NCBI RefSeq assembly: GCF_000012885.1
Contig: NC_007498.2
Span: 1,736,001-1,800,000 of the forward strand
Source of the DNA: Syntrophotalea carbinolica DSM 2380
GTDB lineage: Bacteria > Desulfobacterota > Desulfuromonadia > Desulfuromonadales > Syntrophotaleaceae
Direction: 5' to 3'
Length of the DNA: 64,000 bases
Below, one piece after another: positions 8,873-43,496 of this stretch. Every line of letters begins with the position of its first letter. Within the stretch, counting starts at the first letter, position 1. The notes below the pieces were generated by a model, which was given only the letters and a program-made list of their open reading frames with translations, did not search any database and was not told the DNA's origin. A program made the position numbers and the translations under genes.

Positions 8873-8968
8873 TCGCTTCAAGCCGAAGTGGTGGAATTGG
8901 TAGACACGCTAGGTTCAGGGTCTAGTGGCCGTAGGGCCGTGGGAGTTCGAGTCTCCCCTTCGGCACCA
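8873..8968 (+). repeat. Left copy of a 96-bp perfect direct repeat containing a whole tRNA-Leu
   Basis: Bases 8873-8968 are identical to 10445-10540. The repeat covers the entire tRNA plus eight bases in front (TCGCTTCA) and ends exactly at the encoded CCA. It brackets a 1,476-bp segment that carries the Sel1-repeat gene. Confidence 0.9.
8882..8968 (+). tRNA. tRNA-Leu (anticodon CAG)
   Basis: This 87-base type II tRNA has a 7-bp acceptor stem (GCCGAAG with CTTCGGC), a long variable arm, the T-loop GTTCGAGTC and an encoded CCA. The anticodon loop TTCAGGG places CAG at 8916-8918, which reads CTG leucine codons. It is preceded by a good promoter. An identical second copy lies 1.57 kb downstream. 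Confidence 0.95.
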
Positions 8969-10444: not shown

Positions 10445-10540
10445 TCGCTTCAAGCCGAAGTGGTGGAATTGGTAGACACGCTAGGTTCAGGGTCTAGTGG
10501 CCGTAGGGCCGTGGGAGTTCGAGTCTCCCCTTCGGCACCA
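10445..10540 (+). repeat. Right copy of the 96-bp perfect direct repeat containing tRNA-Leu
   Basis: This copy is identical base for base to 8873-8968. Upstream sequences differ completely outside the repeat, and no promoter of comparable quality precedes this copy. Confidence 0.9.
10454..10540 (+). tRNA. tRNA-Leu (anticodon CAG), second identical copy
   Basis: The 87-base sequence is identical to the first copy, including the CAG anticodon and the encoded CCA. It has an intact fold but only a poor match to a promoter upstream, so its expression is uncertain. Confidence 0.93.
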
Positions 10541-37768: not shown

Positions 37769-38479
37769 CAATTGCCCAGACCTGGTCGAAAAAATCAAGC
37801 GACGGGTGTGTTGAACAAGATTTATTCCAATAGGGTGTGTTTCAAGAGCTTCGTTGTAAGTATTTGTATTCCAAAGAAAAATTCGGCATTGTATGCTGGT
37901 TTTTGAGCGAAAGAGGTTCGGTGTTGGCAGGGGCGGTTTTTTTAGTCTTTGAAACAGATCCCATGGACCGCAAGGTGTCACAGTATAACGACAAACCTTC
38001 CGGCGGGCCTGTTTTTGTCGATATGTTGTTTTGGTGGGGCTTTCGTATATTTTTAAGTGCCCGAAAATACACGGAAATATAATTTTATGTGACGCTTTCC
38101 TGCACGAGCTAAGGTGTCGCCAGGTAGTGACACTCCCAAATGGAATATTTTACGAGGACAAGGCTGCCTCACTTCATCGTTCTCATAATCTGTTCGGATA
38201 CTCAGGAAGAAACTGTCCAAGTATTGAATTTTTAGATCAAAAAATCTGTTCAATTTCCACGTAAAGGTAAGTGGGTTCCAATTATTCCACCCCTCCGATG
38301 GTTTGCTCTTTCCCTGTAACTTACCGTTACAATTACTATCCTGCCTTCCTCGCAAAAAAATCATTAGATGGAGTATATCTTAAAAAAGAAATGAGACCGA
38401 ACCATATTAACGACAGGTTTTTCATTATGAAAAACCTGCTGAGAAGGCATTTAAGTGTCCGAATTATCGAGGGAAGTTT
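37769..38479 (+). other. Non-coding stretch between the housekeeping block and the lyase promoter
   Basis: About 710 bases without a convincing gene on either strand. The base composition is more AT-rich than the flanks. Short frames here have no ribosome-binding sites and no protein-like patterns. It may contain decayed coding DNA, but I recognise none. Confidence 0.5.
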
Positions 38480-38495
38480 TGGCATGGCCGTTGCT
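38480..38495 (+). promoter_or_regulatory. Sigma-54 (-24/-12) promoter of the lyase gene
   Basis: TTGGCATGGCCGTTGCT (38479-38495) fits the sigma-54 consensus closely: GG at 38481-38482 and GC at 38493-38494, 12 bases apart. Transcription would start near 38506, about 110 bases before the riboswitch, and read through it into the lyase gene. This requires an enhancer-binding activator that is not in the window. Confidence 0.75.
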
Positions 38496-38616
38496 CTATG
38501 CTTAGCGCGTCACGAAATGACGGCCTAAGGATACGGTCGCGCGGATATCCGCTCGATGTCGACGGGTTACATTACCAACATGATTTGGGAGGGTATGTCG
38601 ATGGTATGAGGAAGCA

Positions 38617-38700
38617 ATTTTCGTTCAAGGCAAAGTCAGAGTAATCTGGCCACGCAAAACCACGGGTCCATGGTTCATGGATAGCCGGGTTGCCGAAAAT
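38617..38700 (+). ncRNA. GEMM-I (cyclic di-GMP class I) riboswitch
   Basis: The ATTTTCG...CGAAAAT ends (38617-38623 and 38694-38700) close the outer helix. Inside are the conserved GGCAAA (38629-38634), a 6-bp stem capped by a GTAA (GNRA) tetraloop (38635-38650), ACGCAAAACCACGGGTCC (38652-38669), a second stem with GTT loop (TCCATG/CATGGA), and the receptor strand GATAGCCGGGTTGCC (38680-38694). This is the GEMM-I order, including tetraloop and receptor. By my alignment the position equivalent to Vc2 G20 is G, favouring c-di-GMP. Relatives in Geobacter-type bacteria can instead sense cyclic AMP-GMP, so the ligand is not settled. Confidence 0.88.
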
Positions 38701-38743
38701 CCTTAATTCTTCAAAACACTTCAAGGTCAGTAGGTACATCTGC

Positions 38744-38784
38744 GGCGCTTTGCTCTGGAATTATAACGGCAGCGCCATTTTTTT
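38744..38784 (+). terminator. Riboswitch expression platform: intrinsic terminator
   Basis: GGCGCT (38744-38749) pairs with AGCGCC (38771-38776) around a loop of 21 bases, followed at once by A and seven T residues. It lies 44 bases after the aptamer and 75 bases before the start codon, so ligand binding probably controls transcript elongation. Whether the ligand turns the gene on or off cannot be read directly. Confidence 0.7.
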
Positions 38785-38858
38785 GTGCCCGCACAGGTAC
38801 AAAAAATTGAGAGACCCGGTTGATTCGGTGTCTAAAAAAAAACATTAAGAGGGAGCAT

Positions 38859-41800
38859 ATGAGAAGAAAATCCTTACTAAAAAATCTATCTACCATGGGA
38901 GGGCTGATTTGTGTGCTGTTGCTTGTCATGCAAATGGCTATTCCCGCAAGAGCTGCGGCAGCAACCGGAAGCTTTGAGTTCGATGCAAGCAGTTACTCTG
39001 TCGATGAAGGCGCCGGTCAGGCCAATGTTCTTTTGAAGCGTGTCGGTGGCGCGTCCGGTTCAGCAACCGTTCAGGTACGTACTCTGTCGGATACTACCGA
39101 TTGGAAAACCGATTACGAGAGTTTCTCCTGGACCACAGTCAGCTTTGCCGATGGCCAGACCCAAAAAACCGTCAGCGTTGTCATTAACGATGATGCGGAG
39201 CAGGAATCCAGCGAAACGTTGAATGTTTTGTTGCGAAAACCCAGCGACGGAACGACGCTCGGCACCGTTACCAGTACTGCGGTAACCATTGTCGATAACG
39301 ACTCCTTGCCCGGCAGTTTCGAATTTGCGCAGGCCGGCTATTCTGTTGCTGAAGACGGCGGCACGGTCGATGTTTTGCTGAAGCGGGTTGGCGGTACTTC
39401 CGGTGCGGCTACCGTCGGGGTGCGTACCATGGGGGTGACGGCTGATTATGCCACTGACTACAGCAGTTTTTCCTGGACCACGGTGAATTTTGCCGATGGC
39501 GAAACCCAGAAGCCTATCAGCATTGCCGTTACCGACGATGCAGCGGTGGAAGACAACGAAACTTTTACCGTGTTGTTGCAGAATCCCACCGGTGGCACCA
39601 GTCTCGGTTCTGTGACCGAAGCCACCGTAACCATTGTTGACAACGACGAAGCAGAGGCTCCTGTCTCCACGGAGCCGGGTAGTTTCGAGTTTGCGGCGGC
39701 CGGTTACTCTGTCGCTGAAGACGGCGGCACGGTCGATGTTCTGCTGAAGCGGGTTGGCGGTACTTCCGGTGCGGCTACCGTCGAGGTGCGCACCCTGGGC
39801 GTGACGGCCGATTACGCCACTGACTACAGCAGTTTTTCCTGGACCACGGTAAATTTTGCCGATGGCGAAACCCAGAAGCCTATCAGCATTGCCGTTACCG
39901 ACGATGCAGCGGTGGAAGACAACGAAACTTTTACCGTGTTGTTGCAGAATCCCACCGGTGGTACCAGTCTCGGTTCCGTGACCGAATCCACCGTAACTAT
40001 CGTCGATAACGACGAAGCGGCGGTTGGCGATACCACAGCACCGGTTGCAGCCATTACCACACCTTTGTCGGGCCTTGAAGTGACCAGCGCTCAGACTTTG
40101 ACCATCGTGGCCGAAGCCAGTGACAATGTTGCCGTCAGTAAGGTTGAATTTTATGACGGAAGCAACTTGATTGGGACCGATACCACCAATACTTACTCGG
40201 CTTCATTGGATGTTAGCGAAACCGATAACGGTACGCATAATCTTACCGTTGTTGCCTATGACGAAGCGGGCAATCAGACCACGTCTTCGCCTGTAACGGT
40301 AACCGTCAATATTGCCTCCGCCTCCACGGAGCCGGGTAGTTTTGAATTTTCGGCAGCCGCTTATTCCGTCGATGAAGATGGCGGCACGGTTGATGTACTG
40401 CTGAAGCGGGTCGGCGGTACTTCCGGCGCAGCCGCCGTCGAGGTGCGTACCCTGGGTGTGACGGCCGATTACGCTACCGACTACAGCAGTTTTTCCTGGA
40501 CCGTGGTGAACTTCGCCGACGGCGAAAGCCAGAAGACCATCAGTATCGGCATTACCGACGATGCTTTGGCGGAAAATGACGAAACCTTTACCGTATTGAT
40601 GCAGAATCCCACCGGCGGAACGACCTTGGGGGCGGTGACCGAATCGACCGTAACCATTGTGGATAACGATATCGATTCCGGCACGACCGTGAATCCGGAT
40701 CTGGGTTATTTGCCGACTTTCCCGGGTGCCGAGGGCTATGGTACCGAAACGGGTGGCGGCCGAGGCGGTCAGATCATCAAGGTCACCAATCTTAACGACA
40801 GCGGTACGGGATCTTTGCGTGCCGCCATACAGGCCAGCGGCGCTCGAATCGTGGTGTTTGAAGTCTCCGGCATTATTGAGCTGCAGAGCGAGCTGATCAT
40901 TACCAACCCCTATATCACCATCGCCGGTCAGACCGCTCCGGCTCCGGGCATCATGTTGAAAAACCGGCGGCTTAAAGTATCCGCCCATGATGTGGTGATT
41001 CAGCATATCCGCGTACGTCCGGGCGATGAGCGCTCCTACAACACTTCCGAAGAAGGGGAACGGGATTGCCTGGGGATCGTCGGTCATTCGGATATCTACA
41101 ACGTTGTGGTTGACCATTGCTCCTTTCAGTGGGCGGTCGACGAGGTCATCGGGCTGTGGGGATATAGCAACAGTCGACTGGACAACATCACCATTTCCAA
41201 CTGCATTGTCAGCGAAGGTCTGGATAACTCGATTCACCCGGAAGGCGCCCACTCCAAAGGGTTCCTTATCGGTGACTATGCCAAGAAGGTAACCGTACTG
41301 CGCAACCTGATTTCTTCAAGCGACGACCGCAACGGCCCGAACGCCAAGGGTGGCACCACCTCGGTGGTGATTAATAACTACGTGTACAATGCCGGCCGCA
41401 GCGGTCGCATGCACTACAGCGATTCCTACAATGCCGGGACCCTGTTTCAATCGACCGTCGGCAATGTTTTCCGGGATGGTCCGGAGTATGCGACCCAGGC
41501 TCCGCTGTGGTGGGCCGACAATACCAAGTCCGGTTCGCAAGTCTACGCCTCGGATAACCTCATACAGCGGCTTGACGAGTCGGTGGCTTCCGTACCGCTG
41601 ATGGATCCTCCGTCCTGGGGCAATCCGCAGGTGTCGACGCCGCCGGTGCCCTACGACAACGTCACCATCCTTCCGACGAGCAGTGTCAAAAGCTACGTAT
41701 TGCAGAACTGCGGAGCGCGACCTGCCGAGCGTGGAACGAGTGCCGGCGACAGTCTCGACGAGCGGGTCATAAATGACGTCTGGAACGGCAGCGGGGCCAT

Positions 41801-41954: not shown

Positions 41955-41997
41955 ACGACGGATAACGTCATTACAGATATTATGCATATGTTACGCG

Positions 41998-42028
41998 CGG
42001 GGTCGTTCTTTGGACGACCCCGTTTTTT
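41998..42028 (+). terminator. Intrinsic terminator after the first lyase gene
   Basis: CGGGGTCGT (41998-42006) pairs with ACGACCCCG (42014-42022) and is followed by six T residues. It separates the two lyase-like genes into different transcripts. Confidence 0.88.
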
Positions 42029-42143: not shown

Positions 42144-43496
42144 ATGGCCCGTAATCTTTTTCTCTACATCTGGATGTCGTTTGCCATGGTCGTTATGTGC
42201 TGCATGTTAACTACCTGCAGTTATTACCAAATCTCCCCGCAGCGGGGTGAGTTGAAAATTTACCCTGGTGCCGAAGGCTATGGTACCGAAACGCCTGGCG
42301 GTCGAGGCGGTCAGATCATTAAGGTCACCAATCTTAACGACAGCGGTACGGGATCTTTGCGTGCCGCCATACAGGCCAGCGGTGCCCGAATCGTGGTGTT
42401 TGAAGTCTCCGGCATCATTGAGCTGCAGAGCGAGCTGATCATTACCAACCCCTATATCACCATCGCCGGTCAGACCGCTCCGGCTCCGGGCATCATGTTG
42501 AAAAACCGGCGGCTTAAAGTATCCGCCCATGATGTGGTGATTCAGCATATCCGCGTACGTCCGGGCGATGAGCGCTCCTACAACACTTCCGAAGAAGGGG
42601 AACGGGATTGCCTGGGGATCGTCGGTCATTCGGATATCTACAACGTTGTCGTTGACCATTGTTCCTTTCAGTGGGCGGTCGACGAGGTCATCGGGCTGTG
42701 GGGATATAGCAACAGTCGACTGGACAACATCACCATTTCCAACTGCATTGTCAGCGAAGGTCTGGATAACTCGATTCACCCCAAAGGCGCCCACTCCAAA
42801 GGGTTCCTCATCGGTGACTATGCCAAGAAGGTAACCGTGTTGCGCAATCTGATTTCCTCGAGCGACGACCGCAACGGTCCGAACGCCAAGGGTGGCACCA
42901 CCTCGGTGGTGATCAATAACTACGTGTACAATGCCGGCCGCAGCGGTCGCATGCACTACAGCGATTCCTATGGTGCCGGGCCGCTGTTCCAATCGACCGT
43001 CGGCAATGTTTTCCGGGATGGTCCGGAGTATGCGACCCAGGCTCCGCTGTGGTGGGCCGACAATACCAAATCCGGTTCGCAGGTTTACGCCTCCGATAAC
43101 CTCATACAGCGCCTTGACGAGTCGGTGGCTTCCGTACCGCTGATGGATCCTCCGTCCTGGGGCAATCCGCAGGTGTCGACGCCGCCGGTGCCCTACGACA
43201 ACGTCACCATCCTTCCGACGGACAGCGTTAAAAGTTATGTGCTGAAAAACAGCGGCGCACGGCCGGCAGAGCGCTGGACGACCTACGGCGACAGAATCGA
43301 CGAGCGAGTCATAAGTGACGTCTGGAACGGCAGCGGGGCCATGATCGACACCCCTGCTCAGGGCGGCGGTTGGCCGACGTATGCCCAGAACACCCGGCAG
43401 TTTGTCGCGCCTGGCAATCCCAACGGCGACGACGACGGTGACGGCTACACCAATATCGAGGAAGTATTGCATCAGATGGCTGCATCTGTCGAATAA
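42144..43496 (+). CDS. Membrane-anchored pectate-lyase-like protein (tandem paralogue)
   Basis: The product has 450 residues. A short hydrophobic N-terminus (MARNLFLYIWMSFAMVVMCCML) ends TTC at residue 25, an imperfect lipobox, so it may be a lipoprotein or simply exported. From residue 42 it is the same beta-helix module as the C-terminal part of the preceding protein, with about 16 differences in 409 residues, and has the same DDDGDGYTNIEE Ca motif near the end. It lacks the Calx-beta and Ig-like domains. GAGGA precedes the ATG. It has its own promoter region behind a terminator. Function as a polysaccharide lyase is inferred from fold. Confidence 0.85.
   Translation: MARNLFLYIWMSFAMVVMCCMLTTCSYYQISPQRGELKIYPGAEGYGTETPGGRGGQIIKVTNLNDSGTGSLRAAIQASGARIVVFEVSGIIELQSELIITNPYITIAGQTAPAPGIMLKNRRLKVSAHDVVIQHIRVRPGDERSYNTSEEGERDCLGIVGHSDIYNVVVDHCSFQWAVDEVIGLWGYSNSRLDNITISNCIVSEGLDNSIHPKGAHSKGFLIGDYAKKVTVLRNLISSSDDRNGPNAKGGTTSVVINNYVYNAGRSGRMHYSDSYGAGPLFQSTVGNVFRDGPEYATQAPLWWADNTKSGSQVYASDNLIQRLDESVASVPLMDPPSWGNPQVSTPPVPYDNVTILPTDSVKSYVLKNSGARPAERWTTYGDRIDERVISDVWNGSGAMIDTPAQGGGWPTYAQNTRQFVAPGNPNGDDDGDGYTNIEEVLHQMAASVE
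42267..43496 (+). repeat. Second copy of the 1230-bp tandem duplication (lyase module)
   Basis: This is the partner of 40725-41954. Homology begins at the Gly-Ala-Glu-Gly codons and ends at the stop codon, so the duplication is confined to the domain, with an unrelated N-terminus joined to it. Confidence 0.9.

Follow-up and report, generated by a model that had tools for sequence, protein, structure and literature searches.

A conserved leader with a sigma-54 promoter element, a c-di-GMP-I aptamer and an intrinsic terminator precedes the gene of an exported Calx-beta protein in Syntrophotalea carbinolica

Background

In the genome of Syntrophotalea carbinolica DSM 2380, the gene of the 1031-amino-acid exported protein P0001 is preceded by a sigma-54 promoter element, an aptamer of the c-di-GMP-I (GEMM-I) family and an intrinsic terminator, in this order, and the same arrangement recurs before related genes in other genomes. 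We consider it probable that this arrangement constitutes a conserved leader that regulates in two steps the gene of an exported protein acting on polysaccharide or matrix; the protein would be made when cyclic di-GMP (c-di-GMP) is low. Coordinates are those of the window, i.e. the whole 64,000-nucleotide stretch of DNA analysed (1,736,001-1,800,000 of a 3,665,893-base single-contig genome, G000); the elements of the leader, P0001 and the terminator behind it all lie on the + strand.

Each part of the leader is of a known kind, while the combination appears, to judge from the sequences, to be real, conserved and unreported in the literature that was searched. A literature search of partial depth, which included passages of PMC2996986, PMC10599522, PMC12316311 and PMC13194489, returned no report of a sigma-54 promoter combined with a GEMM riboswitch. 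In the P. carbinolicus genome paper (PMC3543383) the word riboswitch occurs four times, and GEMM and RpoN zero times; in the main text of the paper on the G. sulfurreducens RpoN regulon (PMC2725144) riboswitch, GSU1945 and GSU1948 occur zero times.

Results and discussion

Anatomy of the leader

The sigma-54 −24/−12 element at 38480..38495, TGGCATGGCCGTTGCT (= TGGCATGgccgTTGCT), has no mismatch to TGGCAYG-N4-TTGCW, and its −24 GG, its −12 GC and the spacing between them follow the consensus and are retained in related leaders. It is the window's sole match to this pattern at up to one mismatch (shuffled sequences average 1.5 at the same tolerance), and one of only four perfect matches in the 3.67 Mb genome, where the reversed pattern has none. 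On a hand-made 16-mer weighting with a maximum of 16.2, it is the only site on either strand of the window that scores at least 15.2. From the established spacing relative to the −12 element, transcription would start near 38506, the position also given by the sequence-only reading, so that 38506..38618 would form the 5' portion of the leader.

The aptamer at 38619..38697 matches the complete RF01051 covariance model (positions 1-87) with 67.3 bits (E 5e-11), against a gathering score of 35, and its predicted hairpin carries a GUAA loop. It is followed by an intrinsic terminator at 38744..38784, a G+C-rich hairpin (38744-38776; outer stem GGCGCT/AGCGCC, −10.1 kcal/mol) with a run of seven T (38778-38784); a simple scanner with a loop limit of 8 missed this hairpin. 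The sequence-only reading had named a near-consensus −24/−12 element, a complete GEMM-I aptamer with a GNRA tetraloop, and a terminator with a seven-T tail, and all of these are found, the promoter element being even a perfect match. It gave no sign for the switch, and it mentioned neither the conservation of the arrangement nor the mini-ORF described below.

In the proposed mechanism, RNA polymerase with sigma-54 would start near 38506 only when an enhancer-binding protein is active, as the promoter suggests. The transcript would then fold the aptamer before it meets the terminator, and the RNA suggests that c-di-GMP would decide on elongation into the gene: by holding the aptamer closed, the ligand would leave the terminator free to form and keep the gene OFF. 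A lyase-type protein would thus be made with the activator on and c-di-GMP low, which would suit matrix remodelling or detachment. That initiation and elongation both gate one exported protein had been suggested before; the anatomy, its conservation in the order and a terminator after the gene agree with this. The computations establish the promoter match, the aptamer and the terminator, the order and conservation of these elements and the enrichment of the mini-ORF, and from them we infer the start site, the ligand, the OFF sign, an effect of the ribosome and the enzymatic function of the protein.

Conservation in the family and the order

The family survey covered 14 genomes with a total of 71 aptamers over the cut-off, the complete background count of aptamers being that of the family, and up to 450 nucleotides upstream of each aptamer were scored (three of the 71 have fewer than 450 nucleotides upstream and one fewer than 450 downstream). 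A sigma-54 score of at least 15.2 was reached upstream of 7/7 aptamers that precede relatives of P0001 (G000, G004, G006 twice, G007, G001 twice) versus 0/64 others (Fisher 7.5e-10), a statistic weakened by the fact that the threshold was picked after the values were known and that members of the same family do not count as independent genomes. Two further aptamers reach 14.2 by virtue of one site shared by a tandem pair, and in the downstream 450-nucleotide control none of the 71 reaches 15.2 and one reaches 14.2. Nine of the c-di-GMP-I aptamers belong to the window genome itself, and among their loci of approximately 3 kb a relaxed sigma-54 pattern was found only here.

Matches to P0001 are present in 42 of the 136 genomes of the order, many of them sharing one domain only, and 18 lead genes are linked to an aptamer (G000, G004, two in G006, G007, two in G001, G128, G119, G129, G014 with tandem aptamers, G130, G131, G025, G029, G112, G111 and G060). 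Fifteen of them have an upstream sigma-54 site scoring at least 14.2, and the terminator finder, successful in 61 of 82 leaders scanned, detected a hairpin in 15 of 18 related ones. A gene-blind search of 277 genomes of the class for a sigma-54 element, 118-148 nucleotides and an aptamer core gave 13 matches in 12 genomes, with none for the reversed control; nine of the 13 are loci of P0001 relatives. The remaining four (G026, G030, G039, G132) have aptamers of the variant families c-di-GMP-I-UAU or c-di-GMP-I-GGC and are followed by two lipoprotein-like proteins, one pilin-like protein and one other signal-bearing protein, as judged by eye. Before some relatives of P0001 a strong sigma-54 site stands without an aptamer that reaches the gathering score (one gene in G009, the second gene in G119, two in G116), and others have neither (G010:C80, G114).

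What speaks against a uniformly conserved leader is that three of the 18 lead genes lack a strong sigma-54 site (G111 and G112, with the identical TGGCYCAATAAATGCT scoring 13.2 each, and G060 with 12.2), and that no terminator was found in three related leaders (G001:C71, G128, G060). Domain content differs among the proteins of the relatives: that of G007 has Calx-beta and Big_7 and no detected lyase domain, and that of G004 has Big_7 and fn3. The leader is thus retained while the exported cargo changes. One class of exported protein stands repeatedly in this order behind both an aptamer of the c-di-GMP type and a promoter element of the kind that depends on an activator, which the other aptamers of the family lack; if the two gates operate as proposed, this would be AND-type logic for a costly extracellular product.

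Related arrangements were also noticed elsewhere. Family f8 includes four genomes in which an aptamer also precedes a Big_7-bearing gene that looks subtilase-like by eye; at three of these loci a sigma-54-like site of degenerate sequence lies at −136 to −139 (scores 13.7-14.2), and the fourth has none. At L200, L211 and L214 (G058, G057, G054), genes of secreted proteins, subtilase-like by eye, are accompanied by an aptamer, a Shine-Dalgarno-like stretch and, between −136 and −139, a degenerate site of the sigma-54 type. In G013 and G008, tandem aptamers (L034/L046 and L026/L035) share a TGGAATAYCCTTTGCT site 40-47 nucleotides upstream of the first aptamer.

Sign of the switch

The terminator begins 46 nucleotides past the aptamer, and the two coexist in the minimum-energy fold. 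Its 5' arm CUUUGCUCUGG (38748-38758) can pair, with one bulge, with the aptamer core GGCAAAG (38629..38635) and its flanks, a pairing that appears in predicted ensembles and makes the core a candidate antiterminator partner. For the three closest leaders, some truncated transcripts at least are predicted to fold with this long-range pairing in place of the aptamer. Because leaders with A at the ligand-selecting position, which by precedent may be ON switches, reach a similar value (about 0.5 in several of them), arm pairing alone does not discriminate; it was dropped as a measure of the sign, and a swap control was used, in which the mean arm-aptamer pairing probability of each leader was compared with that of 18 swapped arms. 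The natural arm exceeded the swap mean in 6/6 family leaders tested, with 0-2 of the 18 swapped arms doing as well; G001:C71, the seventh family leader, stood outside this test, as the finder gave no terminator for it. A complementarity to CTTCGG was also considered as an antiterminator and was not used; this stretch, a common tetraloop, recurs in many terminator hairpins.

This layout resembles that of Cd1, a transcriptional OFF switch described, in the part of the source seen, as having a terminator independent of the aptamer and an antiterminator made of an aptamer strand and a terminator arm (PMC9262584). The terminator is separate from the aptamer in both, whereas the window would use the 5' core strand, as predicted, and differs in its sigma-54 promoter and in a target that is an exported matrix-type protein and not flagellar genes. 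With a Cd1-like layout, a terminator outside the aptamer and an arm able to pair with the aptamer core, the models lead us to favour an OFF switch, with some reservation. The reservation comes from the window itself, where the minimum-energy folds of truncated transcripts leave the aptamer closed with no displacement by the arm, and from leaders outside the family, several of which are not clearly above chance in the swap test (swaps as good, of 18: G129 6, G014a 5, G014b 13, G025 9, G029 17, G112 9).

An ON switch behind the same promoter is the less likely sign, and still one to be taken seriously: c-di-GMP would close the aptamer and free a spacer strand as antiterminator, so that the protein would be made at high c-di-GMP and help to build the matrix. 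The cGAMP-type (GEMM-Ib) relatives in Geobacter are ON switches, according to the part of PMC6456294 consulted, and the terminator arm of the window pairs with the spacer (0.58) if the aptamer is taken as closed. In the GEMM-Ib riboswitch of pilM of Geobacter metallireducens (cGAMP, ON), as far as PMC9262584 was seen, the terminator uses an aptamer strand and the two structures are mutually exclusive; the window aptamer belongs to the same structural family, but its terminator involves no aptamer strand and its selecting base is G. The lack of an aptamer strand in the terminator and the arm-aptamer pairing above the swap mean in the six family leaders argue for the OFF sign.

Ligand

The base G at 38629, model position 11, is equivalent to the ligand-selecting base, which we take to be position 20 in the Vc2 numbering. 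It is G in all 19 related aptamers, for which reason c-di-GMP is the likely ligand of the window aptamer on sequence grounds, in line with the preference proposed earlier from the same base. Among the other 64 family aptamers, 41 have G and 23 have A (versus 7/7 G in the related ones, p 0.09). Members of GEMM-Ib, which respond to 3',3'-cyclic GMP-AMP (cGAMP), mostly carry A at the equivalent of position 20, and the window aptamer does not share this feature.

That the ligand is cGAMP or another dinucleotide and not c-di-GMP seems improbable to us, given the G here and in all the related aptamers, and given that the best family of the window aptamer is RF01051. This alternative draws on the fact that the selecting base is A in three of the nine aptamers of the window genome (in one of the three an atypical base follows), on a gene with a Hypr-like GGDEF motif, and on the Rfam clan assignment. 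RF03167 (c-di-GMP-I-GGC) and RF03168 (c-di-GMP-I-UAU) belong to the same clan as the window aptamer, which matched RF01051 only. Nine of the related aptamers fit RF01051 best (the window, G004, G006 twice, G007, G001:C71, G119, G111, G112), and the fact that the other ten (G001:C60, G128, G129, G130, G131, G014 twice, G025, G029, G060) fit the variant c-di-GMP-I-GGC best counts against extending c-di-GMP to the whole class.

The GGC-fitting leaders (L109, L117, L123-L125, L158, L159, L162, G131), half of the related aptamers, have nevertheless the same promoter and gene class. As for the messengers, the genome has 36 GGDEF matches, and the motif is readable in 25 of the 30 loci inspected. One of these reads GHLAGS (G000:C1:1220960-1221418, L195), a Hypr-like change to Ser that may enable the domain to make cGAMP, so that both messengers may exist in this genome. 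Elsewhere in it, at G000:C1:2399735-2400104 (L002, L009), a single sigma-54-like site and an ATG-TAG are followed by tandem aptamers, whose selecting base is A in the first and G in the second, and by the gene of an exported protein that is pilin-like by eye; from its sequence, this pair is possibly a two-messenger gate.

Promoter and upstream region

A working riboswitch transcribed from a weak sigma-70-type start nearer to the aptamer, with the sigma-54 match not being a promoter, is very unlikely: most other aptamers of the family lack a sigma-54 site and presumably use other promoters, but the 7/7 versus 0/64 association and the conservation across families speak for sigma-54, and no sigma-70-like site was found in 38300-38900.

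The genome has one sigma-54 gene and 24 matches to the activator domain; 21 of these exceed 100 bits, and the closest lies at a distance of about 74 kb. A candidate activator site is the inverted repeat GTAAC-TTACC-GTTAC at 38316..38330, about 150-165 nucleotides upstream of the −24 element; the inverted GTTAC/GTAAC pair, taken as GTAAC-N5-GTTAC or its inverse, recurs at a similar distance only in G007 (2 of 20 promoters examined, a weak signal), and single half-sites are found near a comparable distance in G006b and G001. The perfect palindrome CAGGTTTTTCAT-T-ATGAAAAACCTG (38414..38438), also upstream of the promoter, was rejected as an activator site, as its right arm is lost in the three closest leaders. 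They keep only a part of its left half, TTTTCATTATG, with one base changed in one of them, and therefore the full palindrome may be incidental.

A start-stop mini-ORF next to the aptamer

Between the promoter and the aptamer, the leader contains a Shine-Dalgarno-like GGGAGGG (38587..38593), followed by a start-stop mini open reading frame (mini-ORF), ATG-GTA-TGA (38601..38609), which can also be read from 38595 as MSMV* and which abuts the aptamer. A strict test was applied to 18 related leaders (G111 left out) and to the 64 other family leaders, requiring ATG, at most three codons and a stop within the last 45 nucleotides, with a Shine-Dalgarno core 8-16 nucleotides upstream. The mini-ORF was found in 8/18 related leaders versus 2/64 others (Fisher 4e-5, a value that overstates independence because this genus and a single further family, G128 and G129-G131, account for all eight positives). 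With at most one codon, the counts are 7/18 versus 1/64, and 2000 dinucleotide shuffles of the one-codon form gave a mean of 0.2 and a maximum of 3 of 18. A strict Shine-Dalgarno core 12-70 nucleotides before the aptamer is present in 11/18 related leaders versus 9/64 others.

Members vary in their second codon and in their stop (GTA TGA, GTA TAG, ATC TAA, ACC TAG, ATT TAA, TTG TAA), so that the frame rather than the letters appears to be conserved. A pattern search of 277 genomes gave ten matches, with none for the reversed control; six of the ten lie at related loci and one at a tandem aptamer in G060, and the other three have no aptamer. The two positives among the unrelated leaders are the sigma-54-like tandem leader of the window genome mentioned above (ATG-TAG) and one in G011. 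The strict test was negative in 10/18 related leaders, and G111 has a five-codon ATG-...-TAA with no strict Shine-Dalgarno sequence, which detracts from the generality of the element. In five of the negative leaders (G001b, G006a, G014a, G014b, G025) a Shine-Dalgarno-like stretch is still present. In G001a, a ninth leader, ATG-ATT-TAA stands behind a weaker Shine-Dalgarno sequence.

In G000, G004 and G006b the stop codon is predicted to be paired in a helix with the aptamer's 3' flank, which in G007 takes in just the last base of the codon, so that a ribosome there should compete with the aptamer base. The Shine-Dalgarno sequence and the mini-ORF would probably let a ribosome sit next to that base. 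The minigene bar of phage lambda is a minimal two-codon ORF with a Shine-Dalgarno sequence; the window mini-ORF has the same two features and differs in abutting a riboswitch aptamer. That the leader has three inputs, with a sigma-54 activator acting on initiation, c-di-GMP on elongation and a ribosome parked on the mini-ORF, is a tentative and rather doubtful extension. If it holds, ribosome occupancy and closure of the aptamer would be mutually exclusive, and the riboswitch would also sense the capacity for translation initiation. The locus thus offers a testable case of two-stage control and, via the mini-ORF, of a possible interplay between ribosome and riboswitch.

The exported protein and its surroundings

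The gene of P0001 (38859..41954) has its start codon at 38859, preceded by AAGAGGGAG. Its product comprises a signal-like N-terminus (judged by eye from the translation), four Calx-beta domains, Big_7 and a C-terminal PelZ/pectate-lyase-like domain. This domain scores 242.6 bits against the PelZ equivalog NF041900, below the cut-off of 840, and is therefore a relative only; it is also related in sequence to PDB 9buj 'Pectate lyase' (E 2e-30). The description as a secreted Calx-beta/pectate-lyase protein given in the sequence-only reading is borne out, the lyase part being a relative of PelZ. The distance to the PelZ cut-off, and the failure to detect the lyase domain in some orthologues, count against the proposed reading, and the enzymatic function of P0001 itself is best called putative. 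In a profile scan of the genome contigs with the lyase alignment, lyases from distant phyla made up most of the best 80 matches listed.

For Geobacter it has been published that fibronectin III surface proteins are under the control of GEMM riboswitches (Gbem_1796/1798/1799, KN400_1971, GSU1945), and the parts of PMC2996986, PMC13194489 and PMC10599522 that were seen mention neither a sigma-54 promoter nor a mini-ORF for these genes. There, as in the window, the same aptamer class precedes exported surface proteins with repeat domains, which are fibronectin III in Geobacter, while P0001 has Calx-beta, Big_7 and the PelZ-like domain instead.

Behind P0001, an intrinsic terminator at 41997..42023 (12 pairs, then a T tail, the stem being visible in the sequence) would end the unit, so that one protein would be gated; the scan found this one terminator, where shuffled sequences average 1.8. 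An operon with the polysaccharide genes further downstream, which follow the gene at 42144-43496, is disfavoured by this terminator. A regulon of the PEP-CTERM/exosortase type was set aside as well: P0001 has no PEP-CTERM-like end by eye, and the window genes scanned, a subset, included polysaccharide genes but no exosortase. A phosphomutase gene lies just upstream of the leader in the window and also in G001, G004, G006 and G007, and glycosyltransferase matches occur downstream in G001, G004 and G007.

The C-terminal domain of P0001 recurs, with 94-95% identity, as the gene at 42144-43496, which suggests a recent duplication or gene conversion. At a distance from the locus, two tRNA matches at 8882-8965 and 10454-10537, 1.6 kb apart, have equal scores and the same aligned sequence.

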